DNA of 64,000 bases from Candidatus Brocadia pituitae. GTDB taxonomy: Bacteria; Planctomycetota; Brocadiia; Brocadiales; Brocadiaceae. This document shows positions 262-32,957 of this stretch, piece by piece. A program made the position numbers and the translations under genes. The stretch lies in NCBI GenBank assembly GCA_017347445.1, contig AP021856.1, positions 3,542,613 to 3,606,612 on the forward strand. Direction: 5' to 3'. A model generated the notes under the pieces. The model made no database searches. It saw only the letters and a list, made by a program, of their open reading frames with translations, and was not told the DNA's origin. Within the stretch, counting starts at the first letter, position 1. Each line of letters begins with the position of its first letter.

Positions 262-1053
262 ATGATAAAAGCAAATTATCGTTTTGGTTTAAGGGCTTTG
301 GCCATTGTTTTGTCATTTGCAGCGGCACTTGTTGTAACATTCGGCTGGCGCGGTCTGTCAGGCGGCATTGCCTTGGCGCAGAATGAGGAACCCCAGTTCA
401 CCACGGAGTTTCGGTTGAAGGACTGTAAATTTGAGACTGTAGGGGCAAACTCTTACTTCATCCTCAAACCGGGCTATCGATTGATATTAGACGGGGAAGA
501 GGACGGAGAAACGGTCCGGGTCGTGATTACCGTTCTGCCTAAGACCAAAAAGATCTTCCTTCCAAATATCGGCACGGTGAGAACGAGGGTTGTCGAGGAA
601 CGGGAATCGGTAGATGGCGAATTGGTAGAGGTGTCGAGAAACTTCTTCGCAATATGCAAAAAGACAAATGACGTTTTCTATTTTGGGGAAGATGTCGATA
701 TTTTCAATGAGGATGGTACGATAAGTCATGAAGGGTCATGGCTCGCGGGAGTGGATGGCGCGGAGCCAGGCATCATTATGCCGGGTACTTTTTTGCTGGG
801 TTCGAGATACTTTCAGGAACAGGCGTCTGGCATTGCCACTGACCGTGCAGAGCACGTGGAGATGGGTCTTGAAGTAACTACGGATGCGGGCACATTCAAT
901 GAGTGCGTGAGGGTGCTGGAGACAACGCTTCTGGAACCTGGAGTGGAAAGCGAGAAGATTTACGCCCCCGGAGTTGGGCTGGTTGTAGACGATGTGGTTG
1001 AACTCGTCAAATTCGGCTTTATCAAAGATGACGACGACGATGATGACGACTAA
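262..1053 (+). CDS. secreted protein of unknown function with poly-Asp C-terminus
   Basis: 263 aa. The N-terminus has a basic segment followed by a hydrophobic stretch (residues about 10-32) and an Ala-rich cleavage region ending near ALAQ, so export is likely. The mature part contains CKKTNDVFYFGEDVD, HEGSW.AGVDGA.PGI and a closing PGVGLV.D motif; I recall these in an unnamed family of exported proteins but have no function for it. The last eight residues are all Asp, which suggests an acidic or cation-binding tail. ATG at 262 is preceded by a strong ribosome site, GAAGGAGG. It sits between the Ig-like gene end and the first GEMM riboswitch, on the same strand. Confidence 0.8.
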   Translation: MIKANYRFGLRALAIVLSFAAALVVTFGWRGLSGGIALAQNEEPQFTTEFRLKDCKFETVGANSYFILKPGYRLILDGEEDGETVRVVITVLPKTKKIFLPNIGTVRTRVVEERESVDGELVEVSRNFFAICKKTNDVFYFGEDVDIFNEDGTISHEGSWLAGVDGAEPGIIMPGTFLLGSRYFQEQASGIATDRAEHVEMGLEVTTDAGTFNECVRVLETTLLEPGVESEKIYAPGVGLVVDDVVELVKFGFIKDDDDDDDD

Positions 1054-1117: not shown

Positions 1118-1245
1118 AACATACGACAAAGGCAAACCCTGAGCGATTAGGGGACGCAAAGTAAAGGATCTTTCAACGCACAAGGATGTAGTTAAAGATG
1201 CGCCTTATCCTTTCGTGAAAAAGACAGCCTTACTGCCGAAGATGT
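1118..1245 (+). promoter_or_regulatory. GEMM-I (cyclic di-GMP class) riboswitch, copy 1
   Basis: The core reads AAAGGCAAACC, a CCCTGAGCGATTAGGGG hairpin, GACGCAAAG, a variable stem and then GACAGCC...TGCCGAA, which matches the GEMM-I aptamer layout. The base equivalent to position 20 of the Vibrio Vc2 aptamer is G (1131), the c-di-GMP-type residue. The 3' part overlaps a perfect terminator hairpin, so transcription termination is the likely output. Downstream on the same strand are a small ORF and the modular protein genes from 1626. Confidence 0.85.
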
Positions 1246-1276
1246 TGAAAAACATTTTTGCAGTAAGGCTTTTTTA
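1226..1276 (+). terminator. intrinsic terminator of riboswitch copy 1
   Basis: AGCCTTACTGC (1226-1236) pairs perfectly with GCAGTAAGGCT (1260-1270) and is followed by a T run. Its left arm is part of the aptamer's 3' strand, so ligand binding and termination are probably coupled. Confidence 0.85.
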
Positions 1277-1309
1277 TTTTAAGGATAGGAGAAAAGGCGT
1301 TTTGCATGA

Positions 1310-1625: not shown

Positions 1626-3002
1626 ATGGCATACCAAAAGGAATATATGTTATCCGGACTGGAAAGGGAACTGGAGCTGTATCGGGGGGCGGAATACGAA
1701 GCGCCCAGAGATTCAAACGGGAAGACGCACACTATCGCAGTTATTGATACAGCAGGAAAGCCCATGTCCTTCACGTTTAGTGTAGATCAAAATAAGAAGG
1801 GATATGTGTCTACTTCTGACCATACCTATAAAAAAAGTGCCGGGTTGACCACTAAAACTTTTAAAGTACCGGGTCTCACGCAATTAATTGTAGCGTTGAA
1901 TAAAAAAGGGAATACCGCCTTCCTTGTGTTGATGGATTTTCGACAATTCAATGAAGATTATGATGCCTCAAAACCGGCAACCGTTAATAATATGAGCTTT
2001 AATGTAGTCAAACAAAACGCTTTAACACAGTTTGAAATTCTTGAGTCCAAAACAAGTTTTAAGGTCAGTGTTTTCATTGATGGGAAATGGATGACGACTG
2101 AATATCCCATACAAGAACCAGTTGCTCGACAAATCGAGGAATTTAAAGTATTTATCAGCGGACTCCAACTCGAGGTTTTACCTGAGAAATATTTTGACGA
2201 GAAAGAATTAGAATTCAAAGATGAGGAGTACGATTATGAAGATGCATATGATAACGAGCTTGAGTACGAAGAAGTCGAGGAACCCGACGATGAATTCGAA
2301 TGGGAAAACGAGCTGAATGCCCTTGAGGACGATGGCGTTACCGAAAATTTTGCCAGGCGCTTGTACGAACTGTCAACCCGTTCCTACGAGAGCGAATACG
2401 AGCTCGATGAAGAACTGGACCGGGCGCTGGACGCCGTGGAAGATGAGTTTATGGTCAAGCGGCTGCACCGGAAGAAAAAGCGTGGAAAACGCAAAGGTCT
2501 GTTCAAAAAGATTCTCAGCACCGGGGCGAAGATCGTTGGCAAGATTGCCAGCAAAACACCGATCGGTTCCCTGATCAAGGCGGGAACCAGCCTGGTGAGA
2601 GGCGATATTAAAGGGGCGTTGGGGAATCTTGCCAAGTCGGTGGTAGGCGCTGTGTTACCGCCGGGTGTGGGCACCGTAGCCACGGCGGCGATGGATGCCC
2701 TTGGCGGTGGCGGTGAAGAAGGCGGTGAAGGCGGCGAAGAAGGAGAAGTCCGCAGAGGCGGCAGAAGGAAGCGGGCGATCAGGAGAGTTGCCCGAATCGC
2801 CCGCGATACCTACCGGGAAGTTGCCGACACACTCCCCGAAGATTTTGACCATCCGCTGGTCGCCAATGAAGTCGCCAGGAAGGCAGTGCGGAAGGCGATG
2901 GTCAAAAATGGGGTGAGACCGCCCGGCAAAGCGGAAGGTATTCCCCGGCAGAAGCGGGTTATTAGACTCAGACCCGGGGAAAGAGTGGTCATTACCGGGT
3001 AA
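1626..3002 (+). CDS. modular acidic/aromatic-rich protein, paralog 1 (no catalytic domain)
   Basis: 458 aa from ATG 1626, chosen for the GGGAAGGAGG ribosome site. In order: a conserved N-terminal tag (KEYMLSGLERELELY); an alpha/beta-looking domain to about residue 185; a Glu/Asp/Tyr-rich stretch (about 186-275); a basic run (RLHRKKKRGKRKG, about 279-291); a small-residue hydrophobic segment rich in Gly, Ala and Lys (about 292-365); an acidic GE-rich linker; and an Arg-rich tail with RRKRAIRRVARIAR. There is no signal peptide. From about residue 229 on it is nearly identical to the protein at 3201-5147, yet the N-terminal domains are strongly diverged. I recall similar E/Y-rich proteins near contractile injection systems and proteases, but no function is established here. 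Unlike its paralog it has no inserted hydrolase domain. Confidence 0.85.
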   Translation: MAYQKEYMLSGLERELELYRGAEYEAPRDSNGKTHTIAVIDTAGKPMSFTFSVDQNKKGYVSTSDHTYKKSAGLTTKTFKVPGLTQLIVALNKKGNTAFLVLMDFRQFNEDYDASKPATVNNMSFNVVKQNALTQFEILESKTSFKVSVFIDGKWMTTEYPIQEPVARQIEEFKVFISGLQLEVLPEKYFDEKELEFKDEEYDYEDAYDNELEYEEVEEPDDEFEWENELNALEDDGVTENFARRLYELSTRSYESEYELDEELDRALDAVEDEFMVKRLHRKKKRGKRKGLFKKILSTGAKIVGKIASKTPIGSLIKAGTSLVRGDIKGALGNLAKSVVGAVLPPGVGTVATAAMDALGGGGEEGGEGGEEGEVRRGGRRKRAIRRVARIARDTYREVADTLPEDFDHPLVANEVARKAVRKAMVKNGVRPPGKAEGIPRQKRVIRLRPGERVVITG

Positions 3003-3124
3003 TGCAAGACTTTCCAGCGGAGAATTGGAAGGGAATGATGAACGATATTGCACCCTGAGCCTGTCGCGAAGGGTCGGTCGAATGAAACTAGGGGACAAGG
3101 GGATTGTCAATAACCAGGGAAAAA

Positions 3125-3157
3125 CAACCCCTGAATCCCCCTTTGCTAAGGGGGACT
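3125..3157 (+). repeat. palindromic intergenic repeat (CCCCCTTTGCTAAGGGGG type)
   Basis: A short palindrome centred on CCCCCTTTGCTAAGGGGG. It is of the same general kind as the elements at 33788-33838 and inside the helicase gene near 61.3 and 63.5 kb. Confidence 0.45.
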
Positions 3158-3200
3158 TAATTTTGTGCGTTGCACGAATAAGAAATTAAGGAGGACAAAC

Positions 3201-5147
3201 ATGGCACAGCAAAAAGAATATATGTTATCCGGATTGGAGAGGGAGCTGGAGCTTTATATGGGGGAGGAGTATGAAACTGGCATAAAAACACACACAATCA
3301 AAGCGGTGAATACCGTAAATGCAAACGTTGATGTAACATTTAATATTGATGAAAGCCGCAAAACTGGTGAAATAATTACCTCTGGTCATACATATGTGGA
3401 CAAAAAGAAAATAATTCATAACGTGCCCGAAATAAAGCAAGAGGTTGAACGATTGAAAAAAAGGGGTAATACTACAATTTTAGCGTTCGCCAAAGAACGT
3501 TTTGAGTACAACGAAGAAACAAAAACGAAGTCTGTGGCTGGAACGGCAGGTAAAAATGTTGATATGAAATTTGAAATTGATGAATCTAAATCAATATTAA
3601 GGGCAAGTGTATGGTTTGTGGCAAAATGGGTTTCAAATGAGTACAGATTACAAGCACCAGTAGACCAACAAATACAGGATTTAAAGACATTTATTGACGG
3701 ATTACAGCTAGCCGAACAAGAACTTGGCGACGAATATGAACTCCATCCGGATGAAGAGTCAGGATTTAACTATGAAAAAAAGGAAGACCTGCCAGTTAAA
3801 GAAATTGACATTGGCGATCTTCAAGAAGGTGACATTATCGTCTCTACCACTCGTTACCCTCTCTCCAAGGCTATCCGTCTGCTTTCCGGCTCCCGGGTCA
3901 GTCATACCGCCCTGTATATCGGCAATGGTGAAGTTGTGGAAGCGCTTGGTGACGGTGTCACAAGACACTCTGTGGAGAAAGCTACAAAGGACGACAAGTA
4001 TGCCTATGTCTTACGATATCCGGATTTAAGTCTTGGTGCACAGGGAATCATCCGCGGTTTCGCCATCAAGCATGCCAACTTGAAGACGCCTTTCGATTCT
4101 TGGGGAATGGTTCTGCGTGCGGGACTGCGGATTCCCGGGGGAGGAGAAAAAAGATTTTACTGCTCGGAACTCGTTCTCAGATCGTATGAAGCGGCTGGAA
4201 TCCGCTTGTTCGAGACTACCCAGAAACGACCGGGCGATATTGATGAACTCCGGGGTACGAAATTAGATTATGTTGGCCACATAAAACTTACCAAAAAGCA
4301 GCTTCGCAAGCTTGATGATTCGGAATTCGAAATGGCGGATGAAGATAATGAATGGGAATTGGAAGATGTTGAAGAAGATGACGAACTTTCATATGAATAT
4401 GAGTACGAAGAAGACGAAGAACCCGATGATGAATTTGAATTCGGATTCGAAAATGAGCTGAATGCCGTTGAGGACGATGGAGTTACCGAAAATTTTGCCC
4501 GGCGCTTGTACGAACTGTCCACCCGTTCCTACGAAGGCGAATACGAGCTGGATGAAGAACTGGACCGGGCGTTGGATGCCGTGGAAGATGAGTTCATGGT
4601 CAAACGGCTGCACCGGAAGAAAAAACGCGGAAAACGCAAAGGTCTGTTTAAAAAGATTCTCGGCGCGGGGGCGAAAATCGTTGGCAAGATTGCCAACAAG
4701 ACCCCGATCGGCTCCCTGATCAAGGCAGGCACCAGTCTGGTGAGAGGCAACATTAAAGGGGCGCTGGGGAATCTTGCCAAGGCGGCGGTAGGCACTGTGT
4801 TACCACCGGGAGTGGGTACCGTAGCAACTGCAGCAATGGACGCGCTGGGCGGAGGCGAAGAAGGTGGCGAAGCCGGTGAAGAAGGAGAAGTCCGCAGAGG
4901 ATCCAGAAGGAAGCGGGCGATCAGGAGGGTTGCCCGCATCGCCAGGGATACCTACCGTGAAGTTGCGGATACCCTGCCAGAAGATTTTGATCATCCGCTG
5001 GTTGCCAATGAAGTCGCCAGGAAGGCAGTGCAAAAAGCCATGATCAAAAATGGGGTGAGGCCGCCCGGAAAAGCGGAGGGTATTCCCCGGCAGAAGCGGG
5101 TTATCAAGCTCAGGCCCGGGGAAAAAATCGTCATTATCAGGTCATAA
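3201..5147 (+). CDS. modular acidic/aromatic-rich protein, paralog 2, with permuted papain-like hydrolase domain
   Basis: 648 aa from ATG 3201, preceded by TTAAGGAGG. It has the same N-terminal tag as paralog 1, then a diverged version of the N-terminal domain. About residues 203-380 form a YiiX/YebB-type NlpC/P60-superfamily (permuted papain) domain: DLQEGDIIVS, His235 in SHTALYIG and Cys321 in FYCSELV. Such domains hydrolyse amide or acyl bonds in peptidoglycan or lipids; the substrate here is unknown. A very acidic Tyr-rich stretch follows, then the basic run, hydrophobic segment and Arg-rich tail shared with paralog 1. No signal peptide is seen. It is 18 bp upstream of the metalloprotease gene and probably cotranscribed with it. 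Confidence 0.88.
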   Translation: MAQQKEYMLSGLERELELYMGEEYETGIKTHTIKAVNTVNANVDVTFNIDESRKTGEIITSGHTYVDKKKIIHNVPEIKQEVERLKKRGNTTILAFAKERFEYNEETKTKSVAGTAGKNVDMKFEIDESKSILRASVWFVAKWVSNEYRLQAPVDQQIQDLKTFIDGLQLAEQELGDEYELHPDEESGFNYEKKEDLPVKEIDIGDLQEGDIIVSTTRYPLSKAIRLLSGSRVSHTALYIGNGEVVEALGDGVTRHSVEKATKDDKYAYVLRYPDLSLGAQGIIRGFAIKHANLKTPFDSWGMVLRAGLRIPGGGEKRFYCSELVLRSYEAAGIRLFETTQKRPGDIDELRGTKLDYVGHIKLTKKQLRKLDDSEFEMADEDNEWELEDVEEDDELSYEYEYEEDEEPDDEFEFGFENELNAVEDDGVTENFARRLYELSTRSYEGEYELDEELDRALDAVEDEFMVKRLHRKKKRGKRKGLFKKILGAGAKIVGKIANKTPIGSLIKAGTSLVRGNIKGALGNLAKAAVGTVLPPGVGTVATAAMDALGGGEEGGEAGEEGEVRRGSRRKRAIRRVARIARDTYREVADTLPEDFDHPLVANEVARKAVQKAMIKNGVRPPGKAEGIPRQKRVIKLRPGEKIVIIRS

Positions 5148-5165: not shown

Positions 5166-6440
5166 ATGCCAACGATGATTTCCCAGAATGAGCTTTACCG
5201 GCGATTTATTTCCGTCAGCAATAAAGTGAAGCTTCTTTCATCACTGCGAAAATCGATTGCTCTTCCTGTCGATTACAACATCACCGAAAGCCAGTGGTCG
5301 GCAATTGAATCGCCGTTGTTTGCAATCGAAGCGAAGCTTCGCACCTGCCTGAAAAAAGAGGGAAGAGAACATCTGCGGCTTATTCACCAGGCAGAGGCAA
5401 AGAGGGCGTTGACACTGTTGTTGGGCAAGATGGAGTTGGAACTGTCAAAGGCATTCATCTATTTTGACACCTTTGTGGACCTGTTATCGCAGCGTCATTT
5501 ACCGGAGGTGGGGCTCCTTTTGGGTGGATGTGACGCCCTTGCCTGGGATGCCCTGAAAAAAGATCACCCGGCGCTTTCCATCATTGAGAAACCGCTGGTT
5601 TCCTTTAACCGTGGCTTTGGAGCATCTATCCTCAGAGAGGGAGTGCCGCTGCCGGATGGTACACCCAACCCGCTTGCTACCATTCAAATCCCTTATACCA
5701 AGATCAAGGACAAGTACAATTTAACGTCGGTCGTTCATGAATCAGGTCATTCTGCGATGGTGCAACTGGGATTGGTAAACGTCCTGCCAAAAGCGATCGG
5801 AGATGCCCTGACACATGCCGGGGCGCCGGAGGTGATCGGGAAGCTCTTTGCCCTGTGGACCATGGAGATTGGCCCGGATTTCTGGGGGTTTTGTAATTGC
5901 GGCGCTGCCCAGGCGTCGAGCGCCATGGAAATCCTCAGCCTTCCCCCGTCGCATGTTTTCAAGGTGTCTGCCACGGATCCTCATCCCCCTCCTTTCCTGA
6001 GGGTTTTGCTCGCCTTTGAGTGGTGTCGCCACCAGTGGGGAACCGGGGATTGGGATGAATGGGAAAAACAATGGTTAACCACGTATCCGCTCGAGGCGGC
6101 ATCCGCGAGGGACCGGAAGGTGCTTGCTGCCGGCAGGCGTTATGTATCCACCGTCAGTCGGGCGCTTTTCAACACCAAATTCAGCGCCCTTGACAAGAGA
6201 ACCATCCCGTCTCTTTTTGATCTTAACAGGAGTGACCCGGCGCGGCTGGAAAGACTCGTTCGGGATGCCGAAAGCAGTGGCATCCTGAATTTATCGGAAC
6301 TTTCCCCGTGCGGCCAGTTGGCGCTGTTCAGGACGCTGAGAAACAAGAGCACCTTATCGGAACAATCGCTGGATCGCCTGATGACCGCCTGGTTAATCCG
6401 GTTAGCAAGAGGAAGTAAATTCAAAGAACACTATACTTAA
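5166..6440 (+). CDS. predicted HExxH zinc metalloprotease, family not recognised
   Basis: 424 aa. A zinc-binding HESGH motif (residues 191-195, in SVVHESGHSAM) is preceded by a beta-like stretch and followed by a helical region containing Glu residues that could give the third ligand. No export signal or membrane segment is seen, and the remaining sequence matches no protease family I can name. ATG 5166 has no good ribosome site; ATG 5175 (MISQNE) has GAGAG nine bases upstream and is the likelier start. It lies 18 bp after paralog 2 and 17 bp before the next gene, consistent with one operon. Confidence 0.7.
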   Translation: MPTMISQNELYRRFISVSNKVKLLSSLRKSIALPVDYNITESQWSAIESPLFAIEAKLRTCLKKEGREHLRLIHQAEAKRALTLLLGKMELELSKAFIYFDTFVDLLSQRHLPEVGLLLGGCDALAWDALKKDHPALSIIEKPLVSFNRGFGASILREGVPLPDGTPNPLATIQIPYTKIKDKYNLTSVVHESGHSAMVQLGLVNVLPKAIGDALTHAGAPEVIGKLFALWTMEIGPDFWGFCNCGAAQASSAMEILSLPPSHVFKVSATDPHPPPFLRVLLAFEWCRHQWGTGDWDEWEKQWLTTYPLEAASARDRKVLAAGRRYVSTVSRALFNTKFSALDKRTIPSLFDLNRSDPARLERLVRDAESSGILNLSELSPCGQLALFRTLRNKSTLSEQSLDRLMTAWLIRLARGSKFKEHYT

Positions 6441-6457: not shown

Positions 6458-7684
6458 ATGACAAATGGTAATGGTAAGACACCTGCTGAATATAAGGCAG
6501 AATTAGCCGCACACGGAGAAAAACTGATCGATCACTCGATCTATCCCAGGCTTAAGGTCCCCTTTGTGCCCTGTGCCGATCTGCTGCTTGCCCAGGCAAA
6601 GGATGATCTCGAAATAAAGGCATTTCACGATCAATATTTTGCTAATTTTGGGGACATCATTTTCACGGTTGCAGATATAAAAAAGTTTTGCAGCGAATTT
6701 AAGGAAGATGAATTAAGCGTGAAAGATTTCATGGCTGCAATGGGATGTTTACCGCCCGGCTGCACGACCCTCTCCGGAATCAGGGGGTCTGCCGGCTATA
6801 TCGATCCCCCCCCGGTTTTAAAAATACCCAGGTTGTTCATAGGTGACGTGGTATGGGCTTATTGGATTGACCGGATGGGGATATTTGAAATATTTGCTAA
6901 ACTGGTGAATGATTATGCCACGGCCGGAAAGTTTCCTATTGACAATAATATTCCTTTTGGCGACACTAATTTAACACCGGTTATCTTAGAGGTAATGGTG
7001 CGCCAATTACAGATGGGGCTTGCTTCTTTAGCCCGGGACCGGGTGAGCACGTATCGTCGCTGTCTGGGTTGGACCACCCCTGTTGGCAGGAAAATGGATA
7101 TTCAGACTGAAGTGAACACTGCATTTACCAGCCAATTCCACCTATTTATGAAAACCGCATTGGAGTATTACAAAGACCTGCGCTTAGCTCAGGCAATCCG
7201 GCAAACAACCACTGGCGGGGCGTCTGCGTCAACACGGGTTGCGGTTGCCGAGGCGTTACAATTGTTAAAGGAATCCTTCAAGGTGTTTGGTTACGGGCGA
7301 AATAACTATAATACCCTGAATGCCATTGTTTATGAAATTGCTGCGTTGGATCTGATAAGAAACCTCCGGGATGATATCGGCATACCCAGCACCTATACCA
7401 AAGCCAGTCAGTATGTTTCAGCCGCATATTCGACTTTAGTGGAAGGAAAATCTGCGTCAGAGTATAAACCCAATCGCTATATGCTGCACCTGGATTGCGC
7501 GGAAAAAGGAAGAGATTTGCTCCTGGATATTGAGGCTCTCAACACGGATGATGTGGATGCCGTAGGCACGTGGCTCGAAAATAAGATTGTTGAGGAAAAA
7601 CTGGAAACGTACCGGAAGGCATACCGGGATATTACCAAAATTGATTTGGCAGAGAGCATTCAGAATATAGAACAACAGGTTTAA
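6458..7684 (+). CDS. conserved-looking protein of unknown function
   Basis: 408 aa with a strong ribosome site (GAAGGAGG) before ATG 6458. It is soluble and mostly helical in appearance, with no signal peptide and no catalytic motif I recognise. A CLPPGCTTLSGIRGSAGYIDPPP segment near residues 96-118 has the look of a conserved core. It begins 17 bp after the metalloprotease gene and so very likely belongs to the same transcript. It could be an adaptor, immunity or regulatory partner of the neighbouring proteases, but nothing in the sequence decides this. Confidence 0.75.
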   Translation: MTNGNGKTPAEYKAELAAHGEKLIDHSIYPRLKVPFVPCADLLLAQAKDDLEIKAFHDQYFANFGDIIFTVADIKKFCSEFKEDELSVKDFMAAMGCLPPGCTTLSGIRGSAGYIDPPPVLKIPRLFIGDVVWAYWIDRMGIFEIFAKLVNDYATAGKFPIDNNIPFGDTNLTPVILEVMVRQLQMGLASLARDRVSTYRRCLGWTTPVGRKMDIQTEVNTAFTSQFHLFMKTALEYYKDLRLAQAIRQTTTGGASASTRVAVAEALQLLKESFKVFGYGRNNYNTLNAIVYEIAALDLIRNLRDDIGIPSTYTKASQYVSAAYSTLVEGKSASEYKPNRYMLHLDCAEKGRDLLLDIEALNTDDVDAVGTWLENKIVEEKLETYRKAYRDITKIDLAESIQNIEQQV

Positions 7685-7811
7685 GATGAGATACTCATGG
7701 CTTTATCCGGCACTTCCCGGGATTAAGAACTATGGCGATATTACGCATGATAAGAGAATGGTTTCATCATGGTATGACCTGTGTTTTAAGTTAATCTGCC
7801 TTTGGCAGCAA

Positions 7812-7903
7812 TGTAGGTAGTCGCAGGCCTCAGCCTGCGTGGTATTCCTGGGTAAAAGAGAATTGCGAAATGACCGTAGCGCAGACTAAAGTCTGCGGCT
7901 ACC
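7812..7903. repeat. paired-hairpin repeat
   Basis: Two palindromes, CGCAGGCCTCAGCCTGCG (7822-7839 region) and GCAGACTAAAGTCTGC, flanked by GTAG...CTAC, lie in the 341-bp gap between the unknown gene and the metacaspase. This looks like a small REP-pair or MITE. The rest of the gap holds only the metacaspase leader. Confidence 0.6.
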
Positions 7904-8025
7904 AAAGACCCGAAAATCCGTAAAAATGAAATGAAATTCCTATACAAACGACACAACGCTGATTCCGAATAAAGAATCGGTATGATCTTAATTTACCTGC
8001 AAACTTAACTTCAGAGGAGGACTTT

Positions 8026-8862
8026 ATGCCAAAAGGGATTGCACTAACCACGGGATTAAATGCCGTTAATCCAGCACATTACGGCGGCTGGTCGGGAGAA
8101 CTCAACGCGTGTGAAGCTGACGCAAAAGACATGGCGGAGATTGCTCAGTCAAAAGGTTTTGACGTAAAAACCTTGCTTACCAAAGAAGCTACCCGGAAAA
8201 ATGTTATCGATGGGATTACCAAGGCTGCCAGCGCCCTGACCTCTGGCGACATCTTTATGCTCAGCTATTCCGGTCACGGCGGCCAACTCCCAGACCTGAA
8301 CAGCGATGAAGATGATGCACAGGATGAAACGTGGTGCCTGTATGATGGTGAACTGGTAGATGATGAGATTTATGCATTGCTCGGCAAATTTGTACATGGC
8401 GTGCGTATCCTGGTCTTTTCCGACAGTTGCCACAGCGGTACAGTAACAAAGCTTGTTTATTATCAATCTGCCATGAGGGCGACGGGTCCGAAGGGAATTT
8501 CTTCTGAAATCAGATATCGTTTCATGCCAATGGAGGTTGCGGTCCGCACCTATCGTGATAACAAAAAATTTTATGACCCCATCTTAAAAGATCCCAAATT
8601 AAAGGAATCGCGTGATGCCGTGAAGGCCTCAGCGATCCTTATTTCCGGATGCCAGGACAATCAATTGTCGGCTGATGGCACGTTCAACGGATTGTTCACC
8701 GCCAATTTGTTGCAGGTGTGGAATGAAGGAAAGTTTAAGAAAGGATACCGTGCCTTTCGGCGTGCTATCGTAAACCGCATGCCGCCCGATCAGACGCCAA
8801 ACTATTTCCGGGTGGGTGAGATCAACCGCGCTTTTGAAAAACAGAAACCGTTTACCATTTAA
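8026..8862 (+). CDS. type I metacaspase (caspase-fold cysteine protease, family C14)
   Basis: 278 aa from ATG 8026 with AGAGGAGG upstream. The catalytic dyad is clear: His84 in LSYSGHGGQ and Cys135 in FSDSCHSGT. The DETWCLYDGELVDDEI stretch is typical of bacterial metacaspases. There is no prodomain, signal peptide or membrane segment, so it should be cytosolic. Metacaspases cut after Arg or Lys rather than Asp, often with calcium. It is on the same strand as the modular protein operon, 341 bp downstream of it, with a repeat in between; a separate promoter is possible. The basic runs in the two modular proteins are attractive candidate cleavage sites, but this is inference. Confidence 0.92.
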   Translation: MPKGIALTTGLNAVNPAHYGGWSGELNACEADAKDMAEIAQSKGFDVKTLLTKEATRKNVIDGITKAASALTSGDIFMLSYSGHGGQLPDLNSDEDDAQDETWCLYDGELVDDEIYALLGKFVHGVRILVFSDSCHSGTVTKLVYYQSAMRATGPKGISSEIRYRFMPMEVAVRTYRDNKKFYDPILKDPKLKESRDAVKASAILISGCQDNQLSADGTFNGLFTANLLQVWNEGKFKKGYRAFRRAIVNRMPPDQTPNYFRVGEINRAFEKQKPFTI

Positions 8863-8928
8863 CCAGCCGTGTATTTCCTCGCGTAAACACAACCTGTACC
8901 GTGGTGAACAGAAAGGCGGCATACAGAC

Positions 8929-9111
8929 TATAGCAAGCGCATAAAGAAAGTTGTCATGCGAGGGTGCTAGCCCAAAGCAATCTCTGCTATGACTGTCACT
9001 CCGGGCAAAACGGGGAATCTCATGGGTTTGCTTTGCTTGGGTTCACAATTTCGGCTTCGCTGTCGCTCGCAACGACCAGCATATGCCAACTTATTTAATA
9101 CGTTTACTATA
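8929..9111. mobile_element. 183-bp MITE-like element with imperfect ~29-bp terminal inverted repeats
   Basis: The left end begins TATAGCAAGCGCATAAAG and the right end, read backwards, begins TATAGTAAACGTATTAAA; both run into AGTTG(G/T)CAT. Inside it is the common GTCATGCGAGG...CTCGCAACGAC type palindromic repeat (about 8952-9076). No ORF is present, so it would depend on a transposase elsewhere. Confidence 0.6.
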
Positions 9112-9185
9112 ACAATACGGTATCACGAGAACTTTTAATTATTCAAATTGCTTTTAGCAAGTAGCAAGATAATGGGATAAACAAA

Positions 9186-9296
9186 ACATACATACGATAA
9201 AGGCAAACCCTGAGCGATCAGGGGACGCAAAGGAAGGGTCTCGCCAAACCGCTTAAGCCGTTTAAACGGCTTGAACGGTTTTTATTGCCGAAGATG
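9186..9296 (+). promoter_or_regulatory. GEMM-I riboswitch, copy 2 (orphan)
   Basis: The 5' half (CATACGATAAAGGCAAACC, CCCTGAGCGATCAGGGG, GACGCAAAG) is almost identical to copy 1, with G at the position-20 equivalent (9202). The variable stem is short and contains the perfect 18-bp palindrome AAGCCGTTTAAACGGCTT (9255-9272); the 3' element is reduced to TTGCCGAAGATG. No plus-strand gene follows before the convergent korB, so it has lost its target or acts on nothing visible. Confidence 0.75.
9246..9284 (+). terminator. hairpin plus T-run inside riboswitch copy 2
   Basis: AAACCG...AAGCCGTTTAAACGGCTT...CGGTTTTT forms a strong stem followed by five Ts and may itself end transcription. The usual GCAGTAAGGC terminator after the aptamer is degraded here, with only the right arm kept at 9312-9320. 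Confidence 0.45.
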
Positions 9297-9368
9297 TTTG
9301 TGGAAATTTTTGCAGTAAGCTTTTTTATTTTAACGTTAAGGAATTTCAAAGTATATGGTTTTTAGTAT

Positions 9369-9439
9369 GTCATTCCCACGAAAATGGGAATCCATGCACT
9401 TTTTTGAAGAACCTGGATTCCCGTTTACACGGGAATGAC
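9369..9439. repeat. ATTCCC/GGGAAT inverted-repeat element
   Basis: GTCATTCCCACGAAAATGGG and its complement CCCGTTTACACGGGAATGAC bracket a 71-bp unit. This resembles the widespread dRS3/Correia-like 'GTCATTCCC' palindromes of many genomes. Confidence 0.65.
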
Positions 9440-9484
9440 AAAGTAACGCAAAGTCGCTGCTACAGGCAGCCTAATTCAATAATG

Positions 9485-12819: not shown

Positions 12820-12903
12820 TGCCGAAGCAGGGAGTTGAACCCTGACCCCGTTGCCGGGACTAGACCCTGAATCTAGCGCGTCTGCCAATTCCGCCACTTC
12901 GGC
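12820..12903 (-). tRNA. tRNA-Leu(CAG)
   Basis: The reverse strand folds as a type II tRNA: acceptor GCCGAAG...CTTCGGC with discriminator A, D-arm GGCGGAATTGGCAGACGCG, anticodon stem CTAGA-TTCAGGG-TCTAG with anticodon CAG, long variable arm (TCCCGGCAACGGGG region) and T-arm ending GGGTTCAACTCCC. CCA is not encoded; a T run follows the 3' end and may terminate transcription. Confidence 0.96.
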
Positions 12904-21619: not shown

Positions 21620-21866
21620 AAAAACATACGATAAAAGCAAACCCTGAGTGATCAGGGGACGCAAAGCAAAGGGTCTTTACAAACCACCACAAAGACGCTA
21701 AGGTCGCAAAGAAATTCAAGAAGTTTGGACTTAAGAGAATGGGAAATTATGATGCTCGTCTTCTTACTTTTTCTCATTCTTAAGTTCTTTCTCTGCGTTT
21801 TTTGCGTACTCTGCGGTGAATTATCACTGCAAAAGCAGTAAAATAAAGATAGCCTTACTGCCGAAG
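21620..21866 (+). promoter_or_regulatory. GEMM-I riboswitch, copy 3, with A at position 20
   Basis: AAACATACGATAAAAGCAAA, the CCCTGAGTGATCAGGGG hairpin and GACGCAAAGC match copies 1 and 2, and the 3' part (GATAGCC...CTGCCGAAGATG) is intact. The base equivalent to Vc2 G20 is A (21636); copies 1 and 2 have G. In known GEMM-I RNAs A20 marks the Ib type that accepts 3',3'-cGAMP. The variable stem is lengthened by an inserted repeat (21684-21820). Downstream is a decayed Ig-like gene. Confidence 0.75.
21684..21820. repeat. palindromic repeat inserted in the riboswitch variable stem
   Basis: The left arm (CCACCACAAAGACGCTAAGG...GCAAAGAAATTCAAG) is an imperfect inverse of the right arm (CTTAAGTTCTTTCTCTGCGT...CTCTGCGGTGAA). 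This is the common 'ccacagagacgcagag' type dispersed repeat and accounts for the extra length of this GEMM copy. Confidence 0.65.
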
Positions 21867-22765: not shown

Positions 22766-24055
22766 TTATAAGGTTTGTCGTTTCTTTTTGTCTTTCCGTA
22801 AGGAATCGATTATATGACCCTTTATGGGAAAAGAAAAAGTCTTGATCGTCTTACCCTCGTGTTTTACCACCAGTTTCTTGTGTTGCGTAAAAATGGTTGC
22901 AACAAGGTACTGCCCTTCAAGCTTCTTCCTGATAAAGTATTGATTACCGTTAATTTCAACTTTACCATGCGTGCCTACCTTCCTTATAAAGGAGATATTC
23001 CCTTTTGCAACGGGAATATCCAAACAACCCCGTGCATCCAGGTAAGGTTCGAGATTGAACCCTATGGGTATCTGTTTCAGAGACTCCCACAAAGAGTCTC
23101 TCAGTACTCCAGGAAACCGCGTACCATGGTCTTTTTGAGTAAGTCCTCGGTGCGGTTTTTTATACTGATAGTACCTCAGAAACCGCTCATTGACTTTCTT
23201 CAATCGTGCAAGGGAGAGACACCTATGTCTTCTCAGTACCCTTTCCTGCCAAAGATCGTTAAAACTCTCAACCGTGGCATTTCTTCCCGGCTCGCCTTGT
23301 GGAATAAATACCACGTGAATACCCAAAAGCAGATGAAGGCGAATAACCTGAGAAATACTGTACGGATATCTCCCACCTCCCGTGGCAGCCATTTCATTGT
23401 CCATCTGCGATGCCTCTGGGATTCCAAGGTTTCTCCATGCCTCAAGCAGATGTTTGCACAGAGAAATCGACTGTTTGTCGGTAAACTGACTCGCCCAGAC
23501 AGTACGTCCTGCAACATCAACCGTATGAAACGTATAAAACCGGATAACCTTGTCAGTACCCCTGAGATATCTTGGCCCCACAAGATCAGTCTGGTGGAGT
23601 TCTCCCATCTTTTCAGCTTTAAAGTAAGGGTAGGGGTGTTTTTTCCCCTTTTCCTTACGTCCTTGTTTATTGCCTGTTTTCCCATATCGAGAAAGTATTC
23701 GTGCAATAGTAGGTATCGATGGAATATCCCGTATCTTCTTCTGTTCGAGTTCCCAGTGGATAACTTCCGCTCCTATCCCAGAAAAAGCAGAACGGCGTGT
23801 CTTGTGAGTCTCCAGTTCTTCCCGAAGAGAAAGTATTTTCTTTATCAATCGCCCAGATATTTTTCTCCAAATTCGTCTCGGTGCACGACTGCGATCTTTG
23901 AGACCTTTATTCCCGTATTCTTTGTATCTTCTAAGCCATTTATGCAGCCATCCACGACTCCTTTGTACCAACTGAAGTATCTTATTGAATCCGTGCCCCT
24001 TTTTATACAACTGAATCGCTTGGTGCCGTTTCTCATATTCTCTATGATTCTCCAT
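22766..24055 (-). CDS. IS481-family-like DDE transposase
   Basis: 429 aa from ATG 24055, preceded by GGAGGAGGAG; a TTG five codons earlier overlaps the ribosome site. The N-terminal third is a helix-turn-helix region (IQLYKKGHGFNKILQLVQRS.GWLHKWLRRY). The catalytic core shows the rve-type acidic residues: HQTDLVG, ASQMDNEMA and ATVESFNDLWQERVL. The C-terminal part is a beta-rich Mu-C-like domain. The frame is intact, so the element may still be mobile. Confidence 0.88.
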   Translation of the reverse strand: MENHREYEKRHQAIQLYKKGHGFNKILQLVQRSRGWLHKWLRRYKEYGNKGLKDRSRAPRRIWRKISGRLIKKILSLREELETHKTRRSAFSGIGAEVIHWELEQKKIRDIPSIPTIARILSRYGKTGNKQGRKEKGKKHPYPYFKAEKMGELHQTDLVGPRYLRGTDKVIRFYTFHTVDVAGRTVWASQFTDKQSISLCKHLLEAWRNLGIPEASQMDNEMAATGGGRYPYSISQVIRLHLLLGIHVVFIPQGEPGRNATVESFNDLWQERVLRRHRCLSLARLKKVNERFLRYYQYKKPHRGLTQKDHGTRFPGVLRDSLWESLKQIPIGFNLEPYLDARGCLDIPVAKGNISFIRKVGTHGKVEINGNQYFIRKKLEGQYLVATIFTQHKKLVVKHEGKTIKTFSFPIKGHIIDSLRKDKKKRQTL

Positions 24056-24108
24056 CGTCTCCTCCTCCAAAAATGTTTTTGGAGAAAGTTTAGACGATCT
24101 TCTACAAA

Positions 24109-31193: not shown

Positions 31194-32957
31194 CTACAAA
31201 GCTGCTTTTTTGAAGGTTATCCGCTTCCTTGTTATCGCCTGTGGATCAATTCCGAGTTTTTTGTATATCTCCCCTTGTGCTGCCTCCACTTCGGTTGCTA
31301 CCCGAACATGGTGTACATGGATACCATCTGCATCGGGCAGGACTACGGTTACTACCTGATGCGTCTGTAAGAGTTGTTTTATGGTATTCTAACTTCTTGT
31401 TTCTCCCTTCTCTTTCAAGGTGTGCTCAATTGCATGCAAGAGATGGTATGCAAGTACTGAGATAAATAGGTGTGCATCTACCCGGTGTTCCTTCTGATGA
31501 TAGATCGGCCGCAAACCGAGATTGCTCTTGAGATCCCTGAACGCCCTCTCTACTCTCGTCAACATGATGTAAAGACTCCATATCTCCTGCTCGGTTAAAT
31601 CCTTCCGGTTCGTCCTCAACAAATAGGTCCCGTCGTACTTTCCTTCGTCTTCCGTAACATTTCTCCACTGCAAATGTATCACTCCATTCGACTGTGTCGT
31701 CTCTATCGTATAATGTCTCGCTACCCTCCGGTATCTCTCCTTGATCCTCCCTATCTTCTGCTCTATCTTCCCTATGTCCTTGAGTCGTCCACTCTCAATA
31801 TTCTTTCCTAACTTCCCCAGCGCCTCTTCTATCCTCTCCTTGAACCGTTCTCGTATCCCTTTGTCCTTCTCCCCACGCTCTTCACTCCTGCAAAGCACAT
31901 AGACGTCGCCTTCGATCTCTTTCGTCTCCAACCCTTCAAACTCGCCAAATCTCCTCTCCCGCTCTGAATGCCTTGCTGCAACGATGTACTTCATCCCCAT
32001 CCCCCTGATTGACTCAAGCTTTTCCTCTGACACCATTCCCCGATCCACAACAATGGTCGGCTCTTTGGTCTTATCTCTCATCCTTTCCCTGAGCCTTTCT
32101 ACCGTATCCTTCATGGTCGTTATATCTGTCCTGTCTCCTTCATACACCTCATGCCCCTTCACAAATCCTTCCTCATCGACCACCTGCTTGCAATCCCCGC
32201 GTCCGTCCCGGCAATACCCATACTTCGCCTTGCTGTTTGACTCTGCTGCCCCTTTAAAGTAACTGCCCGTCAAATCGTACAGAGAGATCTTCTCCTCGAG
32301 TCGAAACAACCTCCGCTCCTTCTCTCTCAACGCCTCTTCTATCTTCTCCTTACCCTCCAGCATCCGGTCGCTTACCCGATACAGCGCATCTCGTCGTACC
32401 GACACCGACTCATTGCCCGGCAGGTCACATAACGCCGTCCTCTTTACCCAGTCTACCGTTGCATTCTCACTCATCGGCTCTACTAATCTCCCAAACACCT
32501 CCACCTTCGCCCTCTCAATCTCCTTCTTGCTCATTTCGCACCCCTTCAACACCTCGGCCATTCCCGGACGCTTCCAGTACTCCTCTGCCACCAATACCGG
32601 ACCCAGCATCCGAGGCTCTTCCACCTTCAGTTCACCGACATCCGTCCTTATGACATCCTCTGGACTTCCTTCTTCCCGTGCTGCCCTGAGCTTCCCCTTT
32701 CGCCTGAGTCGCGCTACAATCGATTCCGTCACCGCTTGCAGCCCTTCCGGCTCATCCGGGAACATGCTCCGCTGTCCCGAAAGCCTCCGCCTGAGCATTT
32801 CTGTCAGCAGCGCCCACTGCTCTCTCGGCACATCGATATTGCCCAGCGTAAGAATGGTCTTCTGACGTGGACCTTTCTTCGTCGTTATGGTCTCAACCAG
32901 GACCAGACAGGAATATTTCTTGTCACCTCTCTTTTTGTATGCATCTCTGATATACAT
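31194..32957 (-). pseudogene. IS1634-type DDE transposase broken by a TAG codon
   Basis: A 522-codon frame starts at 32957 and stops at TAG 31389-31391 after KGETRS. The same frame continues without interruption for 64 further codons (NTIKQLLQTHQVVTVVLPDADG ... ITRKRITFKKAAL) to a natural stop at 31194-31196. IS1634-family transposases normally carry this tail, with Trp at the position of the TAG. Family features include ILTLGNIDVPREQW at the N-terminus, VVDRGMVSEEKL in the core and VERAFRDLKSNLGLRPIYH near the C-terminus. No sharp terminal inverted repeat was found. Confidence 0.8.

Follow-up and report, generated by a model that had tools for sequence, protein, structure and literature searches.

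The window analysed here is a stretch of 64,000 nucleotides from the anammox bacterium Candidatus Brocadia pituitae (contig AP021856.1 of assembly GCA_017347445.1, positions 3,542,613 to 3,606,612 of the forward strand). Near its start lie two adjacent genes, A and B, whose products are modular and follow one plan: a short N-terminal tag, a beta-rich domain that we call X, an acidic linker and a C-terminal module (C-module), with a permuted papain domain placed between X and the linker in B. The pair heads a conserved unit completed by two further genes, C and D, and upstream of the unit is a cyclic di-GMP (c-di-GMP) riboswitch that overlaps an intrinsic terminator. Comparison of this locus with its homologues shows that central domains are exchanged between the constant ends of A/B-type proteins.

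Domain structure of A and B

Genes A and B share three direct repeats (1622-1700/3197-3275, 84% identical; 2291-2590/4436-4735, 91%; 2706-3003/4848-5145, 87%). Aligned segment by segment, the proteins are 88% identical over the 25 residues of the tag, 38% over 146 residues of the N-domain, 52% over 31 residues of the linker and 92% over the 241 codons of the C-module (A residues 217-458), with a jump in identity at about residue 215 of A and 403 of B; the difference between the N- and C-terminal identities exceeds that in all 10000 permutations. Within the C-module 162 codons are identical, 59 differ synonymously and 20 nonsynonymously, giving 0.047 nonsynonymous substitutions per site (dN), about 0.47-0.49 synonymous substitutions per site (dS) and a dN/dS of about 0.1. 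A first-pass annotation of the sequence had described C-termini that are nearly identical, with mostly silent changes, possibly under strong selection, and the figures agree with this, the selection being purifying. It had also described the N-terminal domains as strongly diverged, which they are, and as sharing only scattered residues beyond the tag, which does not hold: they are homologous, at 36-38% identity, and are two members of one beta-rich domain family.

The papain domain is, as had been proposed, an insertion in one copy, present in B and absent from A. It matches Pfam Peptidase_C92 over residues 207-337 (40.9 bits against a cut-off of 27) and is the sole C92 match in the whole genome, a single contig of 4.08 Mb labelled G000 below. 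The motif SHTALY precedes FYCSELV, so that His comes before Cys, an order which we take to be the hallmark of C92, the permuted papains. The domain thus resembles the YaeF/YiiX family in exceeding the Pfam cut-off and in matching the YiiX structure 2if6 (E 0.0017), but differs in that it sits inside a mosaic protein and scores 76.6, below the NCBIfam YaeF equivalog cut-off of 279. The features of the locus are collected in Table 1.

Table 1. Positions in the window of genes A to D, their parts and nearby features.
Feature	Position	Strand	Description and basis
c-di-GMP-I-GGC riboswitch aptamer (RF03167)	1122..1241	+	heads the unit; 59.4 bits, gathering score 59
Intrinsic terminator	1226..1282	+	5' arm 1226-1236 = aptamer 3' strand; stem -28.2 kcal/mol, z -6.6
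Gene A	1626..3002	+	458 amino acids from tag start; tag, X domain, acidic linker, C-module; open reading frame (ORF) and translation
N-terminal tag of A (LSGLERELELY)	1626..1700	+	direct repeat, segment alignment, motif scan
X domain of A	1701..2177	+	beta-rich with C-terminal helix; modelled, predicted local distance difference test score (pLDDT) about 64-90 by block
Acidic linker of A	2178..2465	+	residues 186-280, net charge -31; overlaps start of C-module
C-module of A	2311..2999	+	helices, basic patch (+10), glycine/hydrophobic stretch, C-terminal helices and tail
Gene B	3201..5147	+	648 amino acids from tag start; tag, X domain, papain, acidic linker, C-module; ORF and translation
N-terminal tag of B	3201..3275	+	direct repeat, segment alignment, motif scan
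X domain of B	3276..3716	+	profile and alignment
Permuted papain (C92/YaeF-like) domain	3795..4295	+	H of SHTALYIGNG and C of FYCSELV present
C-module of B	4456..5144	+	segment alignment
Gene C, HExxH metallopeptidase-like	5166..6440	+	no Pfam/NCBIfam match
Gene D, conserved partner	6458..7684	+	helical, no named family; Pfam/NCBIfam scan, alignment
Caspase-family (C14) protein	8026..8862	+	Pfam match

Exchange of central domains among homologues

Protein A has matches in four of 197 relatives, its own genome included: G000, G005 and G008 of the same genus, and G046, a Candidatus Scalindua from another family of the same order (G005 and G046 being draft assemblies). A profile of the C-module has matches in six of the 392 genomes sampled from the phylum, and two of these are weak (G346, E 1e-4; G147, E 5e-4); neither these two nor weak matches in G094, G312 and G359 were taken as support. 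The X domain is present in three of the 392 and was not found by profile search outside three loci. The close homologues number seven: G000, G005 and G046 have two apiece and G008 has one.

Between tag and C-module, A and B of G000 carry X and X-papain, those of G005 carry X-X and X-papain, and those of Scalindua carry X-papain (frameshifted in the assembly) and X-X, while the single G008 protein is short (255 amino acids) and has no middle. The papain therefore occupies slot B in two genomes (G000 and G005) and slot A in the third (G046), and the DNA of the Scalindua slot-A papain is 83-85% identical to that of the slot-B papains of G000 and G005. In that Scalindua slot-A gene the papain region is out of frame in the assembly, and the two ends of the gene share one frame (locus L016, the G046 unit, 7476-9452). 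In G005 A and G046 B the second X domain has diverged strongly, with 10-28% identity to other X domains, and is called X because of a match to a profile that was built with both included. The slot-A X domains of the three genomes form a group with 63-70% identity among its members and no more than 39% to other X domains. The first-pass annotation had proposed a fixed module joined to exchangeable activities, in which case homologues should not all carry one full domain set. They do not, since the seven show four arrangements (X, X-X, X-papain and none), and central domains are thus exchanged between constant ends.

The same annotation had offered recent gene conversion as a cause of the uniform C-terminus. 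In the C-module tree the two Scalindua copies pair (support 1.000 with FastTree, 100 with UFBoot; dS 0.128) and are compatible with recent conversion, being the only pair that clusters clearly within its genome. The G000 copies do not pair, and their dS of 0.47 is no lower than that of A to the G005 copies (0.33 and 0.35), which does not support recent conversion in this genome, and we rejected it as the explanation here.

One could also suppose that A and B descend from an old tandem duplication with a slow C-module, a fast N-domain and no exchange at all, differing middles being lineage losses or draft assembly errors. The strong purifying selection on the C-module would suit this, as would the frameshifts within the unit in the G005 and Scalindua assemblies, but the papain slot differs between genomes, and the trees differ by part, with slot-A X domains orthologous across three genomes and the Scalindua C-modules pairing within their genome. 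We therefore regard such a history as very unlikely.

A conserved unit with genes C and D

The conserved unit around A and B, with an HExxH gene and a helical gene, is a new observation here, as are its transfer between anammox families, the riboswitch and overlapping terminator ahead of it and the presence of the tag at the start of two peptidoglycan hydrolases. Gene C begins 18 bases after B and gene D comes next; the HExxH gene is present in all four close loci. H191-E192-xx-H195, E234-xxx-D238 and H273-P274 of gene C are invariant in 13 of 13 homologues from 13 loci, and fit the pattern of HExxH zinc metallopeptidases, in which an acidic ligand follows, here E234, 43 residues after the first His (H191). 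The arrangement is, we presume, gluzincin-like, and the metallopeptidase-type pattern leads us to describe gene C as zinc-metallopeptidase-like; its predicted model has a mean pLDDT of 35.6. In G005 gene C is split into two overlapping ORFs by an apparent frameshift, through assembly error or decay (locus L015, the G005 unit, 8032-9305), and the part before the frameshift alone was used in distances. We did not take as support the matches to gene C in G345, G168 and G137, which contain internal stops. At the thresholds used, no Pfam, NCBIfam, PHROG or PADLOC name was obtained for the C-module, X, gene C or gene D, and in the PHROG search A, C and D had no match better than E 0.08.

Gene C also reaches beyond anammox bacteria. 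In 12 of 14 gene C loci an acidic/glycine-zipper gene lies directly upstream of the HExxH gene (the exceptions are L032 in Bradyrhizobium and L050 in G171; Rhizobium CCGE531, a duplicate of CCGE532, is left out of the counts). The glycine-zipper proteins from Rhizobium, Paraburkholderia and other Planctomycetota are connected with the anammox C-module by profile-profile comparison (P 4e-6, probability 87%). All 11 partners computed have an acidic first part (-7 to -54) and a basic, Ala/Gly-rich remainder (+9 to +47), the Ensifer partner in this survey being judged by reading frame only. Distant loci of the operon include one in Rhizobium with PG_binding, DUF2272 and glucosaminidase domains and one in Ensifer where PG_binding and a GIY-YIG nuclease are joined in one protein beside the operon (L028 14261-15193). 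A sigma-54-type activator gene comes after three distant operons (L030 14268-15650 in Paraburkholderia phymatum STM815, L046 11845-13161 and L047 11669-12991; by Pfam match in L030 and L047, by eye in L046), which suggests that they are under different control.

The caspase gene of the window has a counterpart in the G005 locus, upstream of its gene A; there the caspase gene and a subtilisin-family S8 gene each have their own c-di-GMP-I riboswitch. It is reasonable to ask whether the locus might serve protease-triggered self-killing, gasdermin-like in logic only, in which the acidic arm would keep A/B latent until a cut by the caspase or the HExxH protein frees the cationic, glycine-rich segment to permeabilise the cell's own membrane. 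Beyond the caspase and S8 genes, the strict charge segregation in A/B and in the gene C partners may be consistent with this, as may the match of the window caspase to a PADLOC caspase model and the CHAT-annotated genes that gene C relatives adjoin in Bradyrhizobium. However, the stretches from Scalindua and G008 showed no ORF resembling a caspase, the domains associated with the unit have peptidoglycan as their target, anti-phage systems are not typically controlled by c-di-GMP, and A-D have no PADLOC match. We judge self-killing to be quite unlikely. As to a gasdermin fold, no Pfam match was obtained, and the C-module model is of low confidence.

Transfer between families

Between G000 and Scalindua, gene C is 87% identical in amino acids (dS 0.49) and gene D 84% (dS 0.45), against 73% and saturated dS for the core gene pyrG; between G000 and G008, pyrG is 96% identical, the closest found, yet gene C is only 55% and gene D 42%. 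The far greater closeness of C and D than of pyrG in the first comparison, together with the low identities in the second, indicates by sequence distance that the A-B-C-D unit has moved between anammox families. G008 and G000 are syntenic up to window position 1286, just beyond the riboswitch and terminator, and the gene of a CARDB protein then follows in G008; a CARDB protein is also found after gene D in Scalindua.

We rejected tRNA-borne integration, as no tRNA lies near the unit (the sole tRNA of the window is at 12820-12903), and phage origin, as gene C had no match in a phage collection and neither the C-module nor gene C had a relative in viral contigs. Two transposase-like ORFs occur elsewhere in the window (22766-24070 and 31389-32957), and an ORF whose start is near-identical lies near another G000 riboswitch (L096).

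Predicted control by a c-di-GMP riboswitch

Each of the four close loci has a c-di-GMP-I riboswitch ahead of the unit, by a covariance model at its gathering score (window 1122-1241, L015 13787-13884, L016 6987-7105 and L017 7781-7903). In all four, one strand serves both structures, as 3' strand of the aptamer and as 5' arm of the terminator. The arms are exact over 10-11 bases in three; in the G008 unit, where no exact arms were detected, the hairpin still folds, its one mismatch forming a G-U pair. Because ligand binding should prevent termination, we predict a ligand-ON switch. Aptamer and expression platform are laid out as in known c-di-GMP-I riboswitches (RF01051/RF03167), the difference being that here they head mobile cassettes, with a second cargo, the CARDB protein, at the same position in G008.

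Among the matches listed, c-di-GMP-I riboswitches number 45 in G000, 37 in G008, 24 in G005 and 10 in Scalindua, counts which come from at most 150 scored candidates per genome and include some matches below the gathering score; none was found in 14 control genomes. Two matches in G000 lie about 110 bases apart in a tandem-like arrangement (C1:2195100-2195293). The window has two weaker matches, at 9192-9292 (39.2 bits, downstream of the caspase gene) and 21626-21710 (35.4 bits). At window 262-1053 there is a protein with a signal-peptide-like start and eight aspartates at its end, the G008 counterpart having six; a c-di-GMP-I riboswitch (L018 9116-9239) precedes the Ig-like-domain gene just upstream.

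The N-terminal tag and predicted structures

We searched 240 ORFs from 15 stretches for the tag, defined as [LFMIVWY]E[RK]E with a hydrophobic residue directly after it, lying within residues 1-45. There were ten matches, of the form [LF]ERE[LIF], A being counted twice from overlapping stretches. No carriers were found other than the six genes of A/B type, the short protein of G008 and two adjacent G008 peptidoglycan enzymes, one an M15 peptidase with PG_binding and the other VanY. Within G000 the pattern SGLEREL occurs in A and B only. That A/B genes and these peptidoglycan enzymes have the tag in common suggests that it sorts both kinds of protein together.

The predicted model of A shows a beta-rich domain that closes with a helix, spanning residues 31-185 and confident over most of its blocks (block means 64-90); outside it pLDDT is mostly below 50. 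The best structural neighbours of X are small-ligand beta-barrels (calycin) and PH-like domains, with Z of 6.6 or less, a level that the comparison tool rates as a common arrangement, and we suggest, with low confidence, that X is binding-like. In the PDB there was no Foldseek match at E 0.001 or better and no solved relative, one match being at chance level; a match in a viral fold library (6.7e-4, TM 0.09) was treated as noise.

These fold matches, though weak, bear on the idea of a non-antagonistic surface or matrix system, in which X would bind ligands or matrix, the envelope of the producing cell itself would be remodelled by the papain and gene C, and the proteins would aid aggregate formation under c-di-GMP control. 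The large riboswitch sets of G000 and G008 (45 and 37 of the matches listed) fit such a role, and among the proteins linked to the wider riboswitch set in these genomes are some that look exported or type IV prepilin-like. On the other hand, the unit is patchy, transferred and mosaic, the C-module being found, with its two weak cases, in those six of 392 genomes, and the Ensifer fusion of PG-binding and GIY-YIG nuclease domains is hard to reconcile with a matrix role. We consider this explanation somewhat unlikely.

A possible mechanism

The riboswitch points to the aggregated state, and the associated papain, M15, VanY, glucosaminidase and PG_binding domains point to the envelope. We therefore favour, tentatively and with somewhat less than even confidence, the reading that A-B-C-D is a horizontally moving, c-di-GMP-switched cassette of modular envelope-acting proteins, perhaps antagonistic, the antagonism being suggested by the Ensifer GIY-YIG case. 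On this proposal c-di-GMP would switch the cassette on, that is, in aggregated or sessile cells. Through the constant N-terminal tag A/B are probably handled in the same way as the peptidoglycan hydrolases encoded nearby, and A/B may be exported. The acidic arm of the C-module would mask the cationic, glycine-zipper-like segment, which probably inserts in or anchors to a membrane, and gene C probably processes the A/B proteins. The exchangeable cargo would be X in one or two copies, seen as resembling a binding domain for ligands or peptides, or X with a permuted papain amidase/peptidase, and the purpose of the cassette could be the antagonism of neighbours.

Several points weigh against this proposal. 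No secretion signal has been demonstrated for A/B, the C-module is modelled poorly (pLDDT mostly < 50), and X has no confident fold match, its best Z of 6.6 comparing with a noise level of about 8 for the tool, nor any sign of enzymatic activity. The Scalindua papain copy, as noted, is frameshifted in the assembly, and the distant operons have no c-di-GMP riboswitch (none in ten loci). No immunity gene varying with the cargo was seen, the neighbours C and D (about 400 amino acids) being constant and small ORFs not having been searched. As to delivery, no contractile sheath gene (PF04984) was found in any of eight genomes, while three of 14 control genomes matched, so that we rejected cargo of a contractile injection system; VirD4 occurs in three of the eight genomes and is absent from G000, G005 and G046, so that effectors of the X type IV secretion system (X-T4SS) were also rejected.

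The X-T4SS effectors, with their XVIPCD domain, nevertheless offer a likeness. In them a constant C-terminal domain stands behind variable N-terminal envelope enzymes; A/B differ by the lack of VirD4 in these three genomes and by an extra constant N-terminal tag. Effectors of this kind are the subject of PMC6536674 and PMC6759196. Another comparison is with the polymorphic toxin systems, which have a constant N-terminus, a variable C-terminal toxin and a small adjacent immunity gene (Zhang et al., 2012; PMC3482391). The first-pass annotation had seen the pattern of polymorphic effectors, with the fixed part as a delivery or membrane module; this is a possible reading of A/B, whose layout reverses that of classical polymorphic toxins. 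A/B share constant trafficking-type regions with exchangeable activity domains, patchy and transferred occurrence and associated peptidases, but are constant at both ends with a variable middle and have no varying immunity gene that we could see. Cassette recombination is thus common to both, and a constant N-terminus with the variable toxin as the C-terminal-most part is not. No description of the present system was found in the open-licence literature.

In a bolder extension, near-identical c-di-GMP riboswitches would serve anammox bacteria as sites into which exchangeable cassettes for antagonism plug. The short LERE tag and charge-segregated C-module would define an undescribed system of delivery and insertion, and cargo would be reshuffled between slots by recombination through the conserved 5' and 3' ends. 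We think it unlikely that all of this holds.

Significance

Anammox bacteria live in dense granules and are responsible for much of nitrogen loss and wastewater treatment, and to our knowledge their molecular interactions with neighbours are poorly known. If the favoured reading is true, a mobile unit of exchangeable domains under the messenger of the sessile lifestyle would be a concrete, testable factor of antagonism or aggregation. The operon extends to rhizobia and Paraburkholderia, which are culturable and so open to testing. The findings suggest that clumped cells make proteins acting at surfaces or against rivals, and that these form a mobile toolkit.

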